A stretch of DNA of 36,227 nucleotides from Bacillota bacterium (GTDB lineage: Bacteria; Bacillota; SHA-98; Ch115; JABLXJ01): assembly GCA_012839815.1 (NCBI GenBank), contig DUMQ01000012.1, positions 1 to 36,227 on the forward strand, in the 5' to 3' direction. Each line of letters opens with the position of its first letter. Within the stretch, counting starts at the first letter, position 1. The position numbers were made by a program, and so were the translations under genes. Positions 2,497 through 34,736 of this stretch are shown here, one piece after another. Under the pieces are notes generated by a model. It was given only the letters and a program-made list of their open reading frames with translations. It was not told where the DNA came from and made no database searches.

Positions 2497-4242
2497 TTGG
2501 CTTATAATCCCAATAATCCGCTGGTTGTGCAGAGCGATAGAACCATGCTGCTAGAAGTGGAGAATCCGGCGTATGAGGCTGCGCGGGATGAGATCAGCCG
2601 CTTCGCCGAGCTGGAGAAGAGCCCGGAATACGTCCACACCTACCGTATTAGCCCGCTTTCGCTCTGGAACGCGGCAGCCAGCGGGCTCACCGCCAGGTTC
2701 ATAATCGAATCCCTCGAACGCTACAGCAAGTTCGATGTGCCTGAGAATATAAAGAAAGATGTTATCGAATATACTGCGCGCTACGGGAGGCTCAAGCTTT
2801 TAGCCCATGATGATAGCCATCTCGCCCTGCGCTCTGATGACCGCTATCTCATAACAGAGATCTCACATAACAAGGGCGTCCAGAAGCTTATACTGGGGCA
2901 ACCCGATGCAAACACGCTCCTCGTCTCCAAATTTGATAGAGGCCGCATAAAGCAGGCGCTGATCAAGATCGGCTTTCCCGTGGAGGACTTGGCGGGCTAC
3001 GTCTCCGGAGCCCACCTCGACCTGAGTCTGCGCGAGGTGACGCTTAGGGGCAAGCCATTTGCCCTGCGAGATTACCAGCGCGAGGCCGTGGAGGTATTTT
3101 ACGCCGGCGGAGGCGTGCAGGGCGGCAGCGGTGTCATCGTCCTGCCCTGTGGGGCTGGCAAGACCATGGTCGGCCTGGGGGTCATGGACAAGCTTCAATG
3201 CGAGACCCTGATCTTAACCACGGGCGTGACCGCCGTTCGGCAGTGGATAAGCGAGCTCCTGGACAAGACCCACCTTGAGAGGCATATCATAGGCGAGTAT
3301 ACAGGCGAGGTGAAGGAGATAAGGCCGGTAACCGTAACGACATACCAGACGCTGGTCTATAGAAAGAGGAAAACAGGGGAATTCCCTCACTTTGCCGTCT
3401 TTAACAGCAAGGATTGGGGCCTTATAATCTATGATGAGGTGCATCTCCTGCCGGCCGAGGTATTCAGGATCACGGCCGATATCCAGGCCCGACGCCGGCT
3501 CGGCCTGACCGCGACCCTGGTGCGCGAGGACGGCCGCGAGGAGGACGTTTTCAGCCTGATCGGACCGAAGAAATATGATGTGCCGTGGAAGGTCCTGGAG
3601 AAGCAGCAGTGGATAGCGACGGCGGAGTGCTGTGAGGTTAGGGTTAACCTTGCCGAGGACCTTCGCCTGGAATACGCAGTCGCAGATGATCGCGACAAGT
3701 TCCGGATCGCTTCCAAGAATCCTGAGAAGCTTCATATACTGGAGGCCCTCCTGTATAAGCACGCTGGCGATCATGTGATTGTGATTGGCCAGTTCATCGA
3801 CCAACTAAAGGAGATCGCGTGGCGCATAGGCGCGCCGATCATAACGGGCGCTACCCCCAGCCATGAGAGGGAGAAGCTCTACGGCAAGTTTAAATCGGGT
3901 GAGATATCCGTGCTCGTGGTCTCGAGGGTAGCCAACTTTGCAGTGGACCTGCCGGATGCTAACGTGGCGATCGAGGTGTCCGGCATGTTCGGGTCAAGGC
4001 AGGAGGAGGCCCAGCGGCTGGGCCGTGTGCTCAGGCCCAAGTTGGGGGAGAATGTTGCGCATTTTTACTCGCTGGTCACGCGGGACACAAGAGAGCAGTA
4101 TTTCGCGGCAAAGCGGCAGTTGTTCCTGACTGAGCAGGGTTACAGATATGCAATAGTCGATGCAGAGGATATTGCCCCGGGGGATGTTGCCAGAGAGACC
4201 AGGGCTTGCCCGATGCCAGGCAAGGTTGGAGGGGTAGGTTAG
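2497..4242 (+). CDS. XPB/Rad25-type DNA repair helicase
   Basis: This superfamily 2 DNA translocase is the bacterial counterpart of eukaryotic XPB/ERCC3 (mycobacterial ErcC3 type), expected to unwind or remodel damaged DNA. Residues about 10-100 form the XPB N-terminal domain (VQSDRTMLLEV, HTYRISPLSLWNAAASG, YGRLKLL), which lines up with the N-terminal part of human XPB. The helicase core carries Walker A LPCGAGKT at 216-223, the DEVH box at 313-316, GLTATLVRED, and the C-terminal EEAQRLGRVLRPK motif VI. Length is 581 residues. The TTG start is chosen because AGGAGG at 2481-2486 lies 10 bp upstream and the N-terminus then matches relatives; an ATG at 2490 opens only a five-codon frame. The next gene is its probable partner. 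Confidence 0.9.
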   Translation: MAYNPNNPLVVQSDRTMLLEVENPAYEAARDEISRFAELEKSPEYVHTYRISPLSLWNAAASGLTARFIIESLERYSKFDVPENIKKDVIEYTARYGRLKLLAHDDSHLALRSDDRYLITEISHNKGVQKLILGQPDANTLLVSKFDRGRIKQALIKIGFPVEDLAGYVSGAHLDLSLREVTLRGKPFALRDYQREAVEVFYAGGGVQGGSGVIVLPCGAGKTMVGLGVMDKLQCETLILTTGVTAVRQWISELLDKTHLERHIIGEYTGEVKEIRPVTVTTYQTLVYRKRKTGEFPHFAVFNSKDWGLIIYDEVHLLPAEVFRITADIQARRRLGLTATLVREDGREEDVFSLIGPKKYDVPWKVLEKQQWIATAECCEVRVNLAEDLRLEYAVADDRDKFRIASKNPEKLHILEALLYKHAGDHVIVIGQFIDQLKEIAWRIGAPIITGATPSHEREKLYGKFKSGEISVLVVSRVANFAVDLPDANVAIEVSGMFGSRQEEAQRLGRVLRPKLGENVAHFYSLVTRDTREQYFAAKRQLFLTEQGYRYAIVDAEDIAPGDVARETRACPMPGKVGGVG

Positions 4243-4276
4243 AGGTGGGTTGACGGGTAGATTAAGAGGAGGGTTG

Positions 4277-6337
4277 ATGGGTGGGATGGGGTCTATGACG
4301 TATGAGAAGCTCCTGGAGCTCGCGCCCATTGAGCAGCTAAGCCGGGCGGCGGAGCACCTGGGCTATCGCGGCAGGCCGGGTGGCAATCTAGGTGCAAATC
4401 CGGGTTCCAATTCGGGTTCCAATGCTGGAGATGTCAAGGCTGGGATGGATGCTAGAACGGATTCTAAAACGGACTCTAAAACAGATTCCAGAGGTAATCC
4501 CAAGAGAGAGCTTATCAGGTACCTCGTAGAGAGGCTTACTGAGCCCGCCTATGTGGAAGAGGTTTACCGGGGCCTCTCTTCCACCGAGCGCCTTGCCCTG
4601 TTGATGATTATCTTCGCCGATGCCACAGGAGAGGGTGTGCTCAGGGAAGTACACGACGCCCGGGTCGACGAGTTCCTTCACTCGCGGGGTAAGGCCAGGG
4701 CGGCCGGCGAGGCGCTATGGAAGGCGGGCCTTATAGTTATCGTTAACCTAAAGCGTGGCGGCCACCTTTACCTGGTGCCCGCAGAGATTAGAGCGAGGGT
4801 CTTGAGCCTTTTCGCCGGTGAGGTGGCGAGATCGGCCGCTTTAAAGCCTTCAGATTTGAAGTCTTCCTCTCAGCCTGCCGGGCAGCCTGGCTCGAACGGC
4901 GTTGCCACGGCGACCAGGCTCCTGTGCGATATATTCGTGTTCCTGGCGCACTTGAGAAATACCCCGACCAAGCTGACCCGGGAGGGGATGATCTATAAAA
5001 GGGCACAGGAGGCCATCCTGTCGAATTTCATGGAGCCCGAAGTCCTCGCAAAGCCGGCCGGCGCGACAGCCGCCGGCAAGGCTATTCCCATGTCCTACCC
5101 AGAGAGGCTCGGCTTCATCATCCATTTCTGCTTTGACACGAATCTGATCGAGGAGGTTAGCGCTTCCGGCGAGGACAGGTGGAACGGCGATACATACGTG
5201 GTGCCCTCGGCAGCGGTCCGGGAGTGGGTTGGATTGCCCCCAGGCGTGAGGCTTGCCCGGGTGTTTTCATATTGGAACCAGGAGTGGGACCGGGTAAATC
5301 CTATACACGCTCAAATCCTGGAGTTTTTGAGCTGCCTGCCTGTGGGCCTGCCTCTTCGCATTGACAAGGTGTTTGAGGCACTGGACGCATTCATTCGACT
5401 CCTGGGAAATAGGACCCTGAGATATGAGGGCAATATTCATAGATTTCTGCGTCCCCTGTGTTACATGGGGGTTCTTGAGACGAATTTTGAGGCTCCGGTG
5501 CCGGTGTTGACATTAACGGAGTTTGGTAGCGAGATCCTGGGCAGGCTCCTGTCGGGGTGCGACCCGTCCGGACTCATGGGCGAGGCTGGCATTGAGGAAG
5601 ATGGCTTTCATGTCCAGCCGGACTTCGAGGTGCTCGCGTCGCGAAACTTGAGGCAGGAGATCCTGTGGCAGCTGGATGAGGTCGCATCCAGCGTCAAGAT
5701 GGATAATATGATTGTATACAGGCTGACGCGCGAGAGCGCCAGCAGGGCCATGCAGGCCGGCTGGTCGGGCGGGGATATTCTTGAGTTTTTGAGGAAACAC
5801 TCGCGAAACCCCCTCCCGCAAAACGTGGAATTCTCTATAAAGGACTGGTGCAAGAACTATGGGAAGGTCCGCTTCATCGAGACAATGCTTTTGAGGTGTG
5901 AGGACGACGCCACAGCCGAAGCCGTGAAGGCTATCCTGGCGGGCAAGGGCATGATCCTTGGCGAGATAACCCCGAGGGACCTGATGGTGGATCGGAATGC
6001 CTACGAACGTATGGTGCAGATACTGGAGCGATCGGGATATTTCCCAAGACCCGGCGTTTACAGGCTGGAGCGCGTCAAGCCGGGTAACGATGCGGTCAGT
6101 TTTGATAAGCTTGACGCGGAGCTTGACCGGGACTTGAGGGACCTGTTAGGGCTGGTAAGCCCGGGGCCCGGGGATACAAAACGCATATATGACCCCCACG
6201 CAGATGCGCCTGGGACGCTGATATCCCTGGATGACGCGCGGAGGCGGAAAAGGGGGTACGGCGGGTTCCAATCCGTTTCCCTTCCGATTGAGACCGGGAG
6301 ACAGGGCCGGGATGGGGAAAAGGGCAGAGAACCGTAG
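4277..6337 (+). CDS. XPB-associated protein with winged-helix-like N-terminus and XPB-N-like domain (Helicase_C_3 family)
   Basis: The family is annotated only as helicase-associated and is found next to bacterial XPB genes, as beside mycobacterial ercC3. Residues about 442-530 form a second copy of the XPB N-terminal fold: HVQPDFEVL, VYRLTRESASRAMQAG, ILEFLRKHSRNPLPQNV and YGKVRFI align with VQSDRTMLLEV, TYRISPLSLWNAAASG and YGRLKLL in the helicase. The N-terminal 400 residues look helical and winged-helix-like, interrupted by a low-complexity linker with TDSKTDSKTDS. No nuclease motif was recognised. I prefer the ATG at 4277 because AGGAGG lies at 4267-4272; ATG 4286 or a TTG at 4250 remain possible. 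It starts 34 bp after the helicase stop, so the two genes are probably co-transcribed. Confidence 0.8.
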   Translation: MGGMGSMTYEKLLELAPIEQLSRAAEHLGYRGRPGGNLGANPGSNSGSNAGDVKAGMDARTDSKTDSKTDSRGNPKRELIRYLVERLTEPAYVEEVYRGLSSTERLALLMIIFADATGEGVLREVHDARVDEFLHSRGKARAAGEALWKAGLIVIVNLKRGGHLYLVPAEIRARVLSLFAGEVARSAALKPSDLKSSSQPAGQPGSNGVATATRLLCDIFVFLAHLRNTPTKLTREGMIYKRAQEAILSNFMEPEVLAKPAGATAAGKAIPMSYPERLGFIIHFCFDTNLIEEVSASGEDRWNGDTYVVPSAAVREWVGLPPGVRLARVFSYWNQEWDRVNPIHAQILEFLSCLPVGLPLRIDKVFEALDAFIRLLGNRTLRYEGNIHRFLRPLCYMGVLETNFEAPVPVLTLTEFGSEILGRLLSGCDPSGLMGEAGIEEDGFHVQPDFEVLASRNLRQEILWQLDEVASSVKMDNMIVYRLTRESASRAMQAGWSGGDILEFLRKHSRNPLPQNVEFSIKDWCKNYGKVRFIETMLLRCEDDATAEAVKAILAGKGMILGEITPRDLMVDRNAYERMVQILERSGYFPRPGVYRLERVKPGNDAVSFDKLDAELDRDLRDLLGLVSPGPGDTKRIYDPHADAPGTLISLDDARRRKRGYGGFQSVSLPIETGRQGRDGEKGREP

Positions 6338-6475
6338 GGGAGAGACAAGGGTCATAGACAATTAGGAGAAATAGGGGAATGAGGTTGATGAGGGATATTG
6401 ATGAGGTCGGGTATATCATAAAAGAGGTAAAAGAGAATTAGGAAATAGGTGAGAGATAAACGGAGGTGGAGGGCT

Positions 6476-6970
6476 ATGGAGGCGGGACTGGAACTCAAGG
6501 TGGTTAAGATCGATAAGCCCGAGGATATGAACATGATTCTCGGGCAGGCTCATTTCATCAAGACTGTCGAGGATATTTACGAGGCGATGGCGACGTCGGG
6601 TCCCGGGATCAAGTTTGGCGTGGCGTTTTGTGAGTCATCGGGTCCCCGGCTCGTCCGGTACGCCGGAAACGACGACCGTCTCATCGAGCTCGCCCGGAAT
6701 AACGCCCTGAAGCTGGCGGCCGGGCATAGCTTCATCATCCTGATGGAGAACGCCTATCCGATTAATGTGCTTAACGCCATCAAGCAGGTGCCTGAGGTGT
6801 GCGGCATTTACTGCGCCACCGCGAATCCCGTTGAGGTGATCATCGCCGAAACGAAGCAGGGACGCGGAATCCTGGGCGTCATTGATGGCCTGGCATCTGC
6901 GGGCATCGAAGGGGACGAGGACATAGCCGCCCGGAAGAAGCTCCTCCGGACCATCGGGTACAAGCTTTGA
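6476..6970 (+). CDS. Adenosine-specific kinase family protein (PF04008/DUF355)
   Basis: The 164-residue product matches the small single-domain family named after an archaeal protein with reported adenosine-specific kinase activity; its physiological role in bacteria is unsettled. Family-typical segments include FIKTVEDIYEAM, KFGVAFCESSGPRLVR, GNDDRLIELA, HSFIILMENAYPINVLNAI, CGIYCATANPVEVI and the Gly-rich GRGILGVIDG. The ATG is preceded by GGAGGTGGAGG, which fixes the start; an in-frame GTG 27 bp upstream has a weaker site. No signal peptide or membrane segment is seen. It faces the decarboxylase operon convergently, with a structured element between them. Confidence 0.85.
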   Translation: MEAGLELKVVKIDKPEDMNMILGQAHFIKTVEDIYEAMATSGPGIKFGVAFCESSGPRLVRYAGNDDRLIELARNNALKLAAGHSFIILMENAYPINVLNAIKQVPEVCGIYCATANPVEVIIAETKQGRGILGVIDGLASAGIEGDEDIAARKKLLRTIGYKL

Positions 6971-25026: not shown

Positions 25027-26649
25027 ATGCCGGATATTTCGCGGATCCAGCTCGATACCAAGCGAGGTGATGGAGCCTTGACGCGACAGGAGATAACTGA
25101 TAACATTGATTTACTCTTGGAGGTCTTGCCCCCGAGGCTAAGAGGCAGCATAGAGGCCCTGGGTAACTTGAACGACCTCATCGAGGTTATCCTCGACCTG
25201 GGGCGCCAGCCCGAGGCAAGATTCACCAGGAGGTTTATTTACTTGAGCGAGGAGCCTGTCTCCCGCGAAGATATTGGATATGTGTTAAAACGGGTCGGGA
25301 GATTCGGAGGGGATAATAGAGCGGGGATCGAGCGAACATTACACAGGATCTCGGCCATTCGAAATCGCGCTGGCGAGATTATCGGCCTGACCTGCAGGGT
25401 CGGGCGGGCCGTTTTTGGGACCATCGATATAATCAGGGACGTGGTGGAGCAGGAGAAGAGCCTCCTATTGCTTGGCCGGCCTGGCGTCGGCAAGACCACG
25501 ATGCTTCGTGAGGTGGCCCGCGTTTTGAGCGACGAGTTCGAGAAGCGGGTCATAATTGTTGATACCTCCAATGAGATCGCCGGGGACGGGGATATTCCAC
25601 ACCCTGGCATAGGCCGTTCGCGGCGCATGCAGGTGCCCATACCCGCCAGGCAGGCCGATGTCATGATAGAAGCCGTGGAGAATCATATGCCCGAGGTTAT
25701 AGTGATTGATGAGATCGGTACGGAGGCCGAGGCCAATGCGGCGCGGACTATAGCCGAACGTGGGGTCCAGCTCATAGGGACGGCTCACGGCAACACCCTG
25801 GACAACCTGGTGTTAAACCCGGTGCTGAGCGATCTTGTCGGGGGCATTCAGGCTGTGACCCTTGGTGATGAAGAGGCGCGAAAGCGGGGGACTCAAAAGA
25901 CCGTTTTGGAACGGAAGGCCCCGCCGACGTTCGATGTGGTGATCGAGATAAAGGACAAGGATACGCTCGCGATTCACCATGACGTGGCAAAGACGGTGGA
26001 TTTGCTCCTCCGGGGCGTTGAACCGCGGCCGGAGATCAGGGTGCGGGGTGCTGGCGGCGAGATAAAGGTGGTACAGGAAGCCGGACTCCCGGATGACCTA
26101 GACAGAGTGGAAGTAGGGGGGGCCGATCCTCACACTGTCCCTGAGGGGAAACCCAGGTTTTTACGGATATTCCCATATGCCGTAAGTCATAACAAACTCA
26201 GCGAGGCTATCGAGATGAGCGGTGTGCCGGCTTATGTAGCACGGGACCTTGGTAGCGCAGATATAATCTTGACGCTAAAGGGACAGTATCGCAAGATGCC
26301 CAAGAGGTTGAGGGAGGCGGAGGAGAGAGGGCTACCCATCCACATTATTAAGAGCAATACGATAAGCCAGATTATGAGCTTTCTGAGGCAGAAGTGCGAC
26401 CCCGGGCACGAGCATGACACGGGGACGGGTATGGGTATGGGCGCAGGCGGAGGTGCGGATGAGGAATCTGCCCTCCGCGAGGCCAAGGAAGCGGTATTAC
26501 GCGTTTCAGAGCAGGCTCAACCCGTGGAATTGAGGCCGCAGAACGCATATATTCGCAAGCTACAACATGAGCTGGCTTCCAGCAATAACTTGAGGTCGGT
26601 GAGCATAGGGGTTGAACCCAACAGGCGGGTAGTGATATTCTCAAAGTAG
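25027..26649 (+). CDS. R3H-domain AAA ATPase (Ycf45/SpoIIIAA-like)
   Basis: The 540-residue protein belongs to a family with an AAA-type ATPase domain related to SpoIIIAA and plastid Ycf45, plus a C-terminal R3H single-stranded nucleic acid-binding domain. Walker A is GRPGVGKTTM (about residue 151) and Walker B VIVIDEIGTEAEA, followed by IGTAHGNTLDNL. The last 40 residues (RPQNAYIRKLQHELASSNNLRS) form the R3H domain. A Gly/Met/Thr-rich low-complexity stretch (HDTGTGMGMGAGGG) joins the two. Its ATG directly abuts the decarboxylase stop codon. The cellular role is not established. It sits where Bacillus has thymidylate kinase (tmk). Confidence 0.85.
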   Translation: MPDISRIQLDTKRGDGALTRQEITDNIDLLLEVLPPRLRGSIEALGNLNDLIEVILDLGRQPEARFTRRFIYLSEEPVSREDIGYVLKRVGRFGGDNRAGIERTLHRISAIRNRAGEIIGLTCRVGRAVFGTIDIIRDVVEQEKSLLLLGRPGVGKTTMLREVARVLSDEFEKRVIIVDTSNEIAGDGDIPHPGIGRSRRMQVPIPARQADVMIEAVENHMPEVIVIDEIGTEAEANAARTIAERGVQLIGTAHGNTLDNLVLNPVLSDLVGGIQAVTLGDEEARKRGTQKTVLERKAPPTFDVVIEIKDKDTLAIHHDVAKTVDLLLRGVEPRPEIRVRGAGGEIKVVQEAGLPDDLDRVEVGGADPHTVPEGKPRFLRIFPYAVSHNKLSEAIEMSGVPAYVARDLGSADIILTLKGQYRKMPKRLREAEERGLPIHIIKSNTISQIMSFLRQKCDPGHEHDTGTGMGMGAGGGADEESALREAKEAVLRVSEQAQPVELRPQNAYIRKLQHELASSNNLRSVSIGVEPNRRVVIFSK

Positions 26650-33859: not shown

Positions 33860-33964
33860 AGCCGGTGGCTCTTGGAAGGTAGTGGAGTAAAACATTAGAA
33901 GGTAGCCGGGCAAGACAATCTTGATTGGGGAGGAAAACCGCCGGTGCCAACGAATATTATCTTT

Positions 33965-33982
33965 GGACGGAAAAGTCCGTCC
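33965..33982 (+). other. Small hairpin in the beta-barrel gene leader
   Basis: GGACGG (33965-33970) pairs with CCGTCC (33977-33982) across AAAAGT. It ends 28 bp before the ATG of the secreted protein gene and about 11 bp before its SD (AAGGGGG). It could stabilise the 5' end of an abundant envelope-protein mRNA. Confidence 0.45.
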
Positions 33983-34010
33983 TACTAAAATCTTAAGGGG
34001 GTTTAGGATA

Positions 34011-34736
34011 ATGAAGAGGAGTCTGGTTATCGGCCTGGTCGTTGTGATGCTCTGCACCCTCGCCGGAGCGGCATCGGCGCAGGGTGGCGCGACGGCTTCC
34101 TACGTTGTAGGAAGCACAGTGTTGGAGGCGAAGAACGGCTATAAGCTGACTGCGAAGGCGAATAGCCTGATGATTCAGGGCGACTTCCTTTTTACGCCCA
34201 AGTTCGGGTTGGGCGTAGCCTATTACGGCTTCTCCGACGCCGAGGCCGAGGAGAACGCCGATATCAAGCTGGGCTTGAGCTATTTTAGCGTCGAGGGGCT
34301 CTACAAGTTTTATTCGGATCCCGCGGTTACCCTTTACCCGCTGCTGGGCTATACGAGCCTGACGAGCAAAACGGATGAGACTGCTGGAACTGCAACTGTC
34401 AACATCGGTGGCTTCAAGGTGGGCGTCAAGGCCGAGACCGCGTTGGCAAAGGGGATAACGGGCCGGATGAGCATCGGCTATTACCCGTCCCTGTCTACAA
34501 AGACGGAGACCAAGGCCAAGGCTGCTGGGGTGGGGAGTACGAAGCTGGCGGTCGTCCCTGCGGAGCCCGAGCAGACCGCGAGCGCCATTGAGTTCCTCGG
34601 CAGCGTGGCATATGAGGTTGCACCTCAAATAAGCATCGATGCCGGTTATCGTTACCTCTCTGTAAACGGGCCCTCCGATGACCCCTGGAAGCTGAGCAAC
34701 AGCGGGCCCTTCATTGGAGTTGGTTATAGATTCTAG
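34011..34736 (+). CDS. Secreted outer-membrane beta-barrel-like protein
   Basis: The 241-residue product begins with a clear Sec signal peptide (MKRSLVIGLVVVMLCTLAGAASA, cleavage before QGG). The mature part shows alternating hydrophobic/polar strands rich in Gly, Tyr and Phe (FGLGVAYYGF, GLSYFSVEGLYKFY, GRMSIGYYPSL, ISIDAGYRYLSV). It ends in GPFIGVGYRF, with the terminal Phe typical of outer-membrane barrel proteins recognised by BamA. Size fits an 8-10-stranded OmpW/OmpA-like barrel; no lipobox, SLH or LysM is seen. The ATG follows AAGGGGGTTTAGGATA; an upstream in-frame ATG would hide the signal peptide. No specific family was recognised. It implies an outer membrane in this organism. Confidence 0.75.
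   Translation: MKRSLVIGLVVVMLCTLAGAASAQGGATASYVVGSTVLEAKNGYKLTAKANSLMIQGDFLFTPKFGLGVAYYGFSDAEAEENADIKLGLSYFSVEGLYKFYSDPAVTLYPLLGYTSLTSKTDETAGTATVNIGGFKVGVKAETALAKGITGRMSIGYYPSLSTKTETKAKAAGVGSTKLAVVPAEPEQTASAIEFLGSVAYEVAPQISIDAGYRYLSVNGPSDDPWKLSNSGPFIGVGYRF

Follow-up and report, generated by a model that had tools for sequence, protein, structure and literature searches.

A gene pair for XPB helicase and a remote p52/Tfb2-like protein in a Bacillota genome

The gene pair described here lies in a 36,227-nucleotide (nt) stretch of DNA from a Bacillota bacterium (contig DUMQ01000012.1 of assembly GCA_012839815.1), the whole of which we call the window. The first gene encodes an XPB helicase, and the second, on the same strand directly downstream, encodes a partner protein whose domains follow one another as in p52/Tfb2, the TFIIH subunit that contacts XPB. 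The evidence supports the partner as a remote, co-linear homologue of p52/Tfb2, and the pair is probably the bacterial form, with two subunits, of the XPB-p52 motor module of TFIIH. We observed domain homologies, a co-linear domain order, conserved pairing of the two genes and a peak of conservation in the clutch domain of the partner. The precedent for an XPB-p52 module comes from TFIIH itself (PMC6422496, PMC7708078, PMC9557730).

Judged by its sequence, the first gene is a genuine bacterial XPB, well above the cut-off of the NCBI equivalog model for this family (Table 1). Its best matches in the Protein Data Bank (PDB) were yeast and human XPB (E 1e-81), and it has the helicase core, the N-terminal clutch and the DRD region that define XPB/ERCC3. 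The profile of the XPB N-terminal half, built from 61 sequences, retrieved the N-terminal domain (NTD) of human XPB at E 2e-21. In this domain the VVQSD..LLE strand is conserved among bacterial XPBs and is the counterpart of the FHVQPDFE strand of the partner. The XPB part of a modelled Paenibacillus pair, described below, matched TFIIH XPB in Foldseek along about 600 columns (E 2e-37), and its match to archaeal XPB was weaker.

The partner carries a second domain of the XPB N-terminal type, as the initial annotation had proposed. The Pfam family PF13625 matched both proteins, at amino acids (aa) 9-133 of XPB and 455-562 of the partner (E-values in Table 1), and its matches in the whole genome were confined to these two genes. 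When the profile of the partner C-terminal half (63 sequences) was compared with that of the XPB N-terminal half, hhalign returned E 1e-26 over 152 continuous columns, with clutch lying on clutch and the following small domain on its counterpart. Since the alignment runs through two domains, the C-terminal half of the partner and the N-terminal half of XPB are paralogous regions. The similarity first noted between partner residues of about 442-530 and XPB residues of about 10-100 therefore held, and its limits had to be moved: the clutch of the partner (453-545) corresponds to that of XPB (8-100), and the matched span as a whole runs from 453 to 600 in the partner and from 8 to 165 in XPB.

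Profile searches linked the same region to p52. Against the 177,635 PDB sequences, the C-terminal half profile of the partner retrieved human XPB (8e-7), human p52 (6e-5), yeast XPB (1e-4) and yeast Tfb2 (0.0025), so that all significant matches were TFIIH subunits. Below them stood Chaetomium p52 (0.01), yeast Tfb5/p8 (0.08) and two unrelated entries (E 0.56 and 1). Even the lone window sequence found p52, beside XPB, at E 0.1. Profile-profile comparison with p52 (a profile of three sequences from PDB chains) gave E 8e-10 for the clutch profile, with column-shuffled controls at 0.15-0.71; the XPB NTD was more weakly related to p52 (E 3e-6). In Pfam, a weak match to the Tfb2 (p52) model PF03849 covered aa 481-518 (E-value in Table 1), and the partner gene was its sole match in the genome. 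Used by itself as a query, the profile of the domain behind the clutch had Tfb5/p8 as its best PDB match, at a modest E of 0.009. This agrees with the report that the Chaetomium p52 C-terminal domain (CTD) and p8 share one fold (PMC7708078).

The winged-helix half of the partner was harder to place. Its profile alone, run with hmmsearch against the PDB, gave only weak winged-helix matches and did not find p52, and so its likeness to p52 had to be sought by structure and by profile-profile comparison. The latter aligned the N-terminal halves of the partner and p52 co-linearly from end to end, over 254 columns (E 3e-4, probability 38%; column shuffles 0.36-0.88, reversed control 0.65).

Structural comparison extended the relationship to the whole chain. 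The AlphaFold2 model of the partner, built from 71 sequences, had a predicted local distance difference test (pLDDT) value of 81.6 and a predicted template modelling score (pTM) of 0.76. When it was compared with the PDB by Foldseek, ranks 1-22 were all p52/Tfb2 (E 6e-13 to 8e-6), with alignments of about 320-550 columns, mostly about 530, and identities of 9-15%. Below rank 22 stood chains of XPB, with alignments of about 160 columns, and four chains of 6tru, a structure of the p52 N-terminal half by itself (E 5e-3 to 3e-2, TMt 0.41-0.43). The partner of Paenibacillus caui, modelled from another alignment (A10) inside an in-frame read-through of the XPB-partner pair (1064 aa), matched p52 at E 1e-13 over about 500 columns. 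The order of winged-helix array, clutch and p8-like domain in the partner is that of p52. Homology to p52, at first offered from domain order, is thus supported by the clutch, by the N-terminal half and by the whole chain, and the similarity goes beyond that expected of generic winged helices.

Conservation among partners peaked where p52 meets XPB. In an alignment with an effective number of about 56 sequences, 18 of the 40 most conserved positions fell within the 93-aa clutch. The FHVQPDFE strand was outstanding, with Q456 and E460 conserved in 98% and P457 in 100% of partners. This strand aligns with the p52/Tfb2 strand that forms the interface towards XPB, in which the changes E342R, E342F and EK342+346RE are lethal in yeast (PMC9557730). 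Outside the conserved domains the family varies. Some partners have a WYL domain at the C-terminus (PF13280, E 2e-15 at best; aa ~640-712 at locus L005 and ~570-645 at L009), a domain of bacterial regulators that the window partner does not have. Two large Bacillota genomes (G066 and G022) encode a second protein that resembles the winged-helix half alone, and such clutch-less proteins matched at E 8e-44 (L020:1336-2544) and 8e-37 (L025:1108-2190).

The homology of the partner to both XPB and p52 leaves room for two histories. In a tree of the clutch, computed from fewer than 100 alignment columns with five eukaryotic sequences, the partner and p52 were split from bacterial and eukaryotic XPB with support 98/95, which rose to 100/100 after the longest rows had been removed. 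Discrete characters gave the same grouping. A Trp residue (IRLW in p52) was found in 38 of 39 partners and all three p52 sequences, compared with 9 of 39 bacterial and neither of two eukaryotic XPBs. Arg or Lys (the R of TRES) occupied another position in 33 of 39 partners and 3/3 p52, where XPB mostly has Pro or Ala; a Pro present in 37/39 bacterial and 2/2 eukaryotic XPBs was absent from p52 and atypical of partners. Indel characters were also common to the partner and p52, and the actinobacterial partners did not have some of these shared characters. The alternative history is a bacterial duplication, in which a copy of the XPB N-terminal region, clutch and next domain together, became joined to a winged-helix protein of unrelated origin; the product would still pair with XPB, and its likeness to p52 would be parallel. 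The partner C-terminal half is indeed nearer to the bacterial XPB N-terminal half (1e-26) than to p52 (8e-10), and the approximately unbiased (AU) test did not reject bacterial XPB and partner as one group (p 0.15). Such a duplication would have to explain, besides the trees and the shared characters, the likeness of the N-terminal half to p52 (6tru E 5e-3, hhalign E 3e-4) and that of the CTD to p8 as chance, and we consider it unlikely. From these sequence comparisons, common descent of the partner with p52 is favoured, not proved, because of the short alignment and the few eukaryotic sequences.

The two genes keep close company across bacteria. Among 73 named loci with both genes, 68 had them within 100 nt of each other, and 36 of these showed a 4-nt overlap. 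Overlaps of this length are typical of translational coupling. In what we infer to be the order of Paenibacillus, PF13625 occurred in 227 of 250 genomes, mostly in exactly two copies. In the window's phylum it occurred in 23 of 300 genomes, 20 of them with at least two copies; a genome from the window's own genus (G525) had no match. The distribution is therefore patchy, even inside a genus, but the two genes are linked. Relatives were found in Bacillota, Latescibacterota, Poribacteria, a deltaproteobacterium, Auribacter, Deinococcus (Deinococcota) and actinobacteria (Actinomycetota), the last including Nocardia, Tsukamurella and Nonomuraea. In M. tuberculosis, Rv0862c, the neighbour of XPB (Rv0861c), is probably a protein of this kind, judging by the relatives in these three genera. 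Control genomes, four archaea included, had PF13625 in Corynebacterium only, and no viral relatives were found. Horizontal gain from eukaryotes was considered and is unlikely, given the spread over Bacillota, Actinomycetota, Deinococcota, Latescibacterota, Poribacteria and others. In Auribacter (L072:5086-8423) and one further genome (G191; L013/L018/L030) the order is reversed: the partner gene immediately precedes XPB, which brings the two segments coding for the clutch domains side by side. A Corynebacterium diphtheriae resistance plasmid (L117:4821-6455) carries a shortened XPB gene, annotated as a helicase-associated protein, beside an IS3 element and erm(X), where it is probably a passenger.

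Besides the AU test, several results weigh against a p52-type module. The partner scored 19-21 bits against the Pfam Tfb2 model, below the gathering cut-off of 34.5, and only its clutch was matched. This cut-off is a curation threshold for close members, and our claim is therefore one of remote homology, not of Pfam membership. Whole-chain TM-scores between the partner and p52 were low (0.2-0.4), because the angles and placement of the domains differ; in the models, the match is a series of domain matches in a common order and not a single rigid superposition. The partner does not keep R369, F370 and Y348, which belong to the interface in yeast Tfb2. In the AlphaFold2 model of the read-through pair both proteins folded (pLDDT 84.6), and their relative placement was not confident (pTM 0.57, from a monomer network with a shallow, mostly unpaired alignment), so we draw no interface from it. 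A few genomes have a divergent XPB and no partner; in these (L121, L122) the single PF13625 gene is XPB, which scored about 260 bits with that of the window. Finally, the window's genome gave no match to Tfb5/p8 (PF06331) at E 10, which a diverged p8 could escape, and none to the Ssl1/p44 family, in a search that did not take in p34, p62 or CAK. The role of p8, the dimerisation partner of p52 in TFIIH, could be filled by another domain in the bacterial pair. A DEAD_2 (DinG/XPD-type) open reading frame (ORF) is present elsewhere in the genome, as in many bacteria. With no family match for p8 or p44, what we describe is an XPB-p52 module and not a bacterial TFIIH.

Some of these results would suit a partner that shares no more than a transcript with XPB and acts in DNA binding or regulation, using its XPB-like domain for DNA or for homodimers and not binding the helicase. 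The regulator-type WYL domain of some relatives and the indefinite placement in the read-through model fit such a protein, and homologous domains could equally well pair with themselves. Against it stand the one-to-one occurrence of partner and XPB genes, which is nearly universal and often includes an overlap, and the peak of conservation on the very strand by which p52 contacts XPB; we regard such a protein as improbable, slightly more so than the independent duplication.

For the pair as a p52-type module, a mechanism can be outlined (see also PMC13024598). XPB would act as an ATP-driven translocase on double-stranded DNA. The clutch of the partner would pack on the homologous NTD of XPB, giving a pseudo-symmetric heterodimer, and its p8-like CTD would then lie near the second RecA lobe, where it may restrain the lobes and stimulate or direct the ATPase. 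The winged-helix array may hold DNA or dock another repair or transcription protein, and the pair as a whole might serve in opening DNA for repair or transcription. A p52-type heterodimer is the most likely form of the complex, which we treat as a prediction because R369, F370 and Y348 are not kept and the modelled placement is not confident.

The features of the pair are collected in Table 1. The XPB ORF has a TTG start, with GAGGAGG 10 nt upstream; the true start of the partner is possibly an ATG at 4277 or 4295, downstream of an AGGAGG at about 4267. The pair is flanked on its 5' side by a gene for a xylulokinase-type FGGY kinase (459-1988) and on its 3' side by a gene of the adenosine-specific kinase family (6449-6970). 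Elsewhere in the window, 25027-26649 encodes an ATPase with a SpoIIIAA-like sporulation region fused to an R3H domain and adjoins a gene for an Orn/Lys/Arg-type decarboxylase. An outer-membrane beta-barrel protein (33921-34733; PF13505 E 1e-13, YfaZ) suggests that this seemingly Bacillota genome belongs to a two-membrane member of the phylum.

Table 1. Coordinates of the XPB-partner gene pair and its domains in the window
Feature	Position	Strand	Details
XPB helicase gene	2497..4242	+	581 aa; NF045503 repair_heli_XPB 863 bits, cut-off 610
XPB N-terminal (clutch) domain	2518..2796	+	aa 8-100; PF13625 E 1e-33; VVQSD..LLE strand
XPB small domain after clutch (DRD position)	2797..2991	+	aa 101-165; homologous to the domain behind the partner clutch
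XPB helicase core, two RecA lobes	3058..4158	+	aa 188-554; Pfam ResIII, Helicase_C, ERCC3_RAD25_C; aligned to yeast Ssl2
Spacer, XPB stop to partner ORF	4243..4249	+	7 nt
p52/Tfb2-like partner gene	4250..6337	+	695 aa; 7 nt past XPB stop
Partner N-terminal winged-helix array	4295..5569	+	aa 16-440; co-linear with p52 N-terminal half
Partner clutch (HubA-like) domain	5606..5884	+	aa 453-545; PF13625 E 2e-23, Tfb2 E 7e-4
Partner FHVQPDFE strand	5606..5629	+	top conserved motif; aligned with p52 FIVVETNY / Tfb2 LIVETNF(K)
Partner small beta-alpha-beta-beta-alpha domain	5885..6049	+	aa 546-600; resembles p8/Tfb5 and p52 C-terminal domain

The p52 identification appears to be new, while the family itself is already annotated. 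The partner belongs to the PF13625 group ('Helicase_C_3'), which RefSeq names 'helicase-associated domain-containing protein'; this annotation covers the clutch region only and does not mention p52. Among open-licence papers we found none that linked the family to p52.

Archaea also have an XPB with a dedicated modulating partner, Bax1 (PMC7293015). It is very improbable that the bacterial partner is a functional counterpart of this nuclease. No nuclease family was matched in the partner at E 1 in a Pfam scan, and Bax1 was not among the Foldseek matches listed. The NTD of Bax1 grips the thumb and second helicase lobe of XPB, unlike a partner that would bind through the clutch. The archaeal XPBs of solved structure, for their part, resemble the window XPB in the helicase core only, not in the N-terminal clutch domain. 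These archaeal XPBs have no clutch and work with Bax1 instead, which makes it conceivable that eukaryotes took the module from bacteria. We tentatively suggest, at somewhat under even chances, that the XPB-p52 module is no eukaryotic invention but an ancient pair of genes that bacteria have retained, so that this part of TFIIH may have come to eukaryotes from a bacterium, or archaea lost it. The pair thus bears on the origin of core eukaryotic transcription and repair machinery.

Among known systems, p52 (human GTF2H4)/Tfb2 (yeast) is the closest. It shares with the partner the winged-helix array, the clutch homologous to the XPB NTD and the p8-like CTD in the same order, and it is the best structural match of the partner in the PDB. 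The partner differs in being bacterial and gene-paired with XPB, in its low identity and altered interface residues, and in its genome having no match for the p8 or p44 family. TFIIH as a whole has ten subunits, including p44, p34, p62, p8, XPD and CAK, whereas two are described here; as a two-subunit model of one TFIIH module, the pair would be convenient for biochemistry and structure. Until now bacterial XPB has been treated as an orphan: the literature calls its function in the cell elusive and reports that bacteria have no p52. With a p52-type protein encoded next door, it gains a concrete, testable complex, and a purpose for its NTD is suggested. The XPB of M. tuberculosis (Balasingham et al., 2012; PMC3353954) is of the same bacterial type, and the role of its N-terminal domain was not yet known at the time. 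That study reported that homologues of p44 and p52 were not found in bacteria, whereas we found the partner close to XPB in related actinobacteria.

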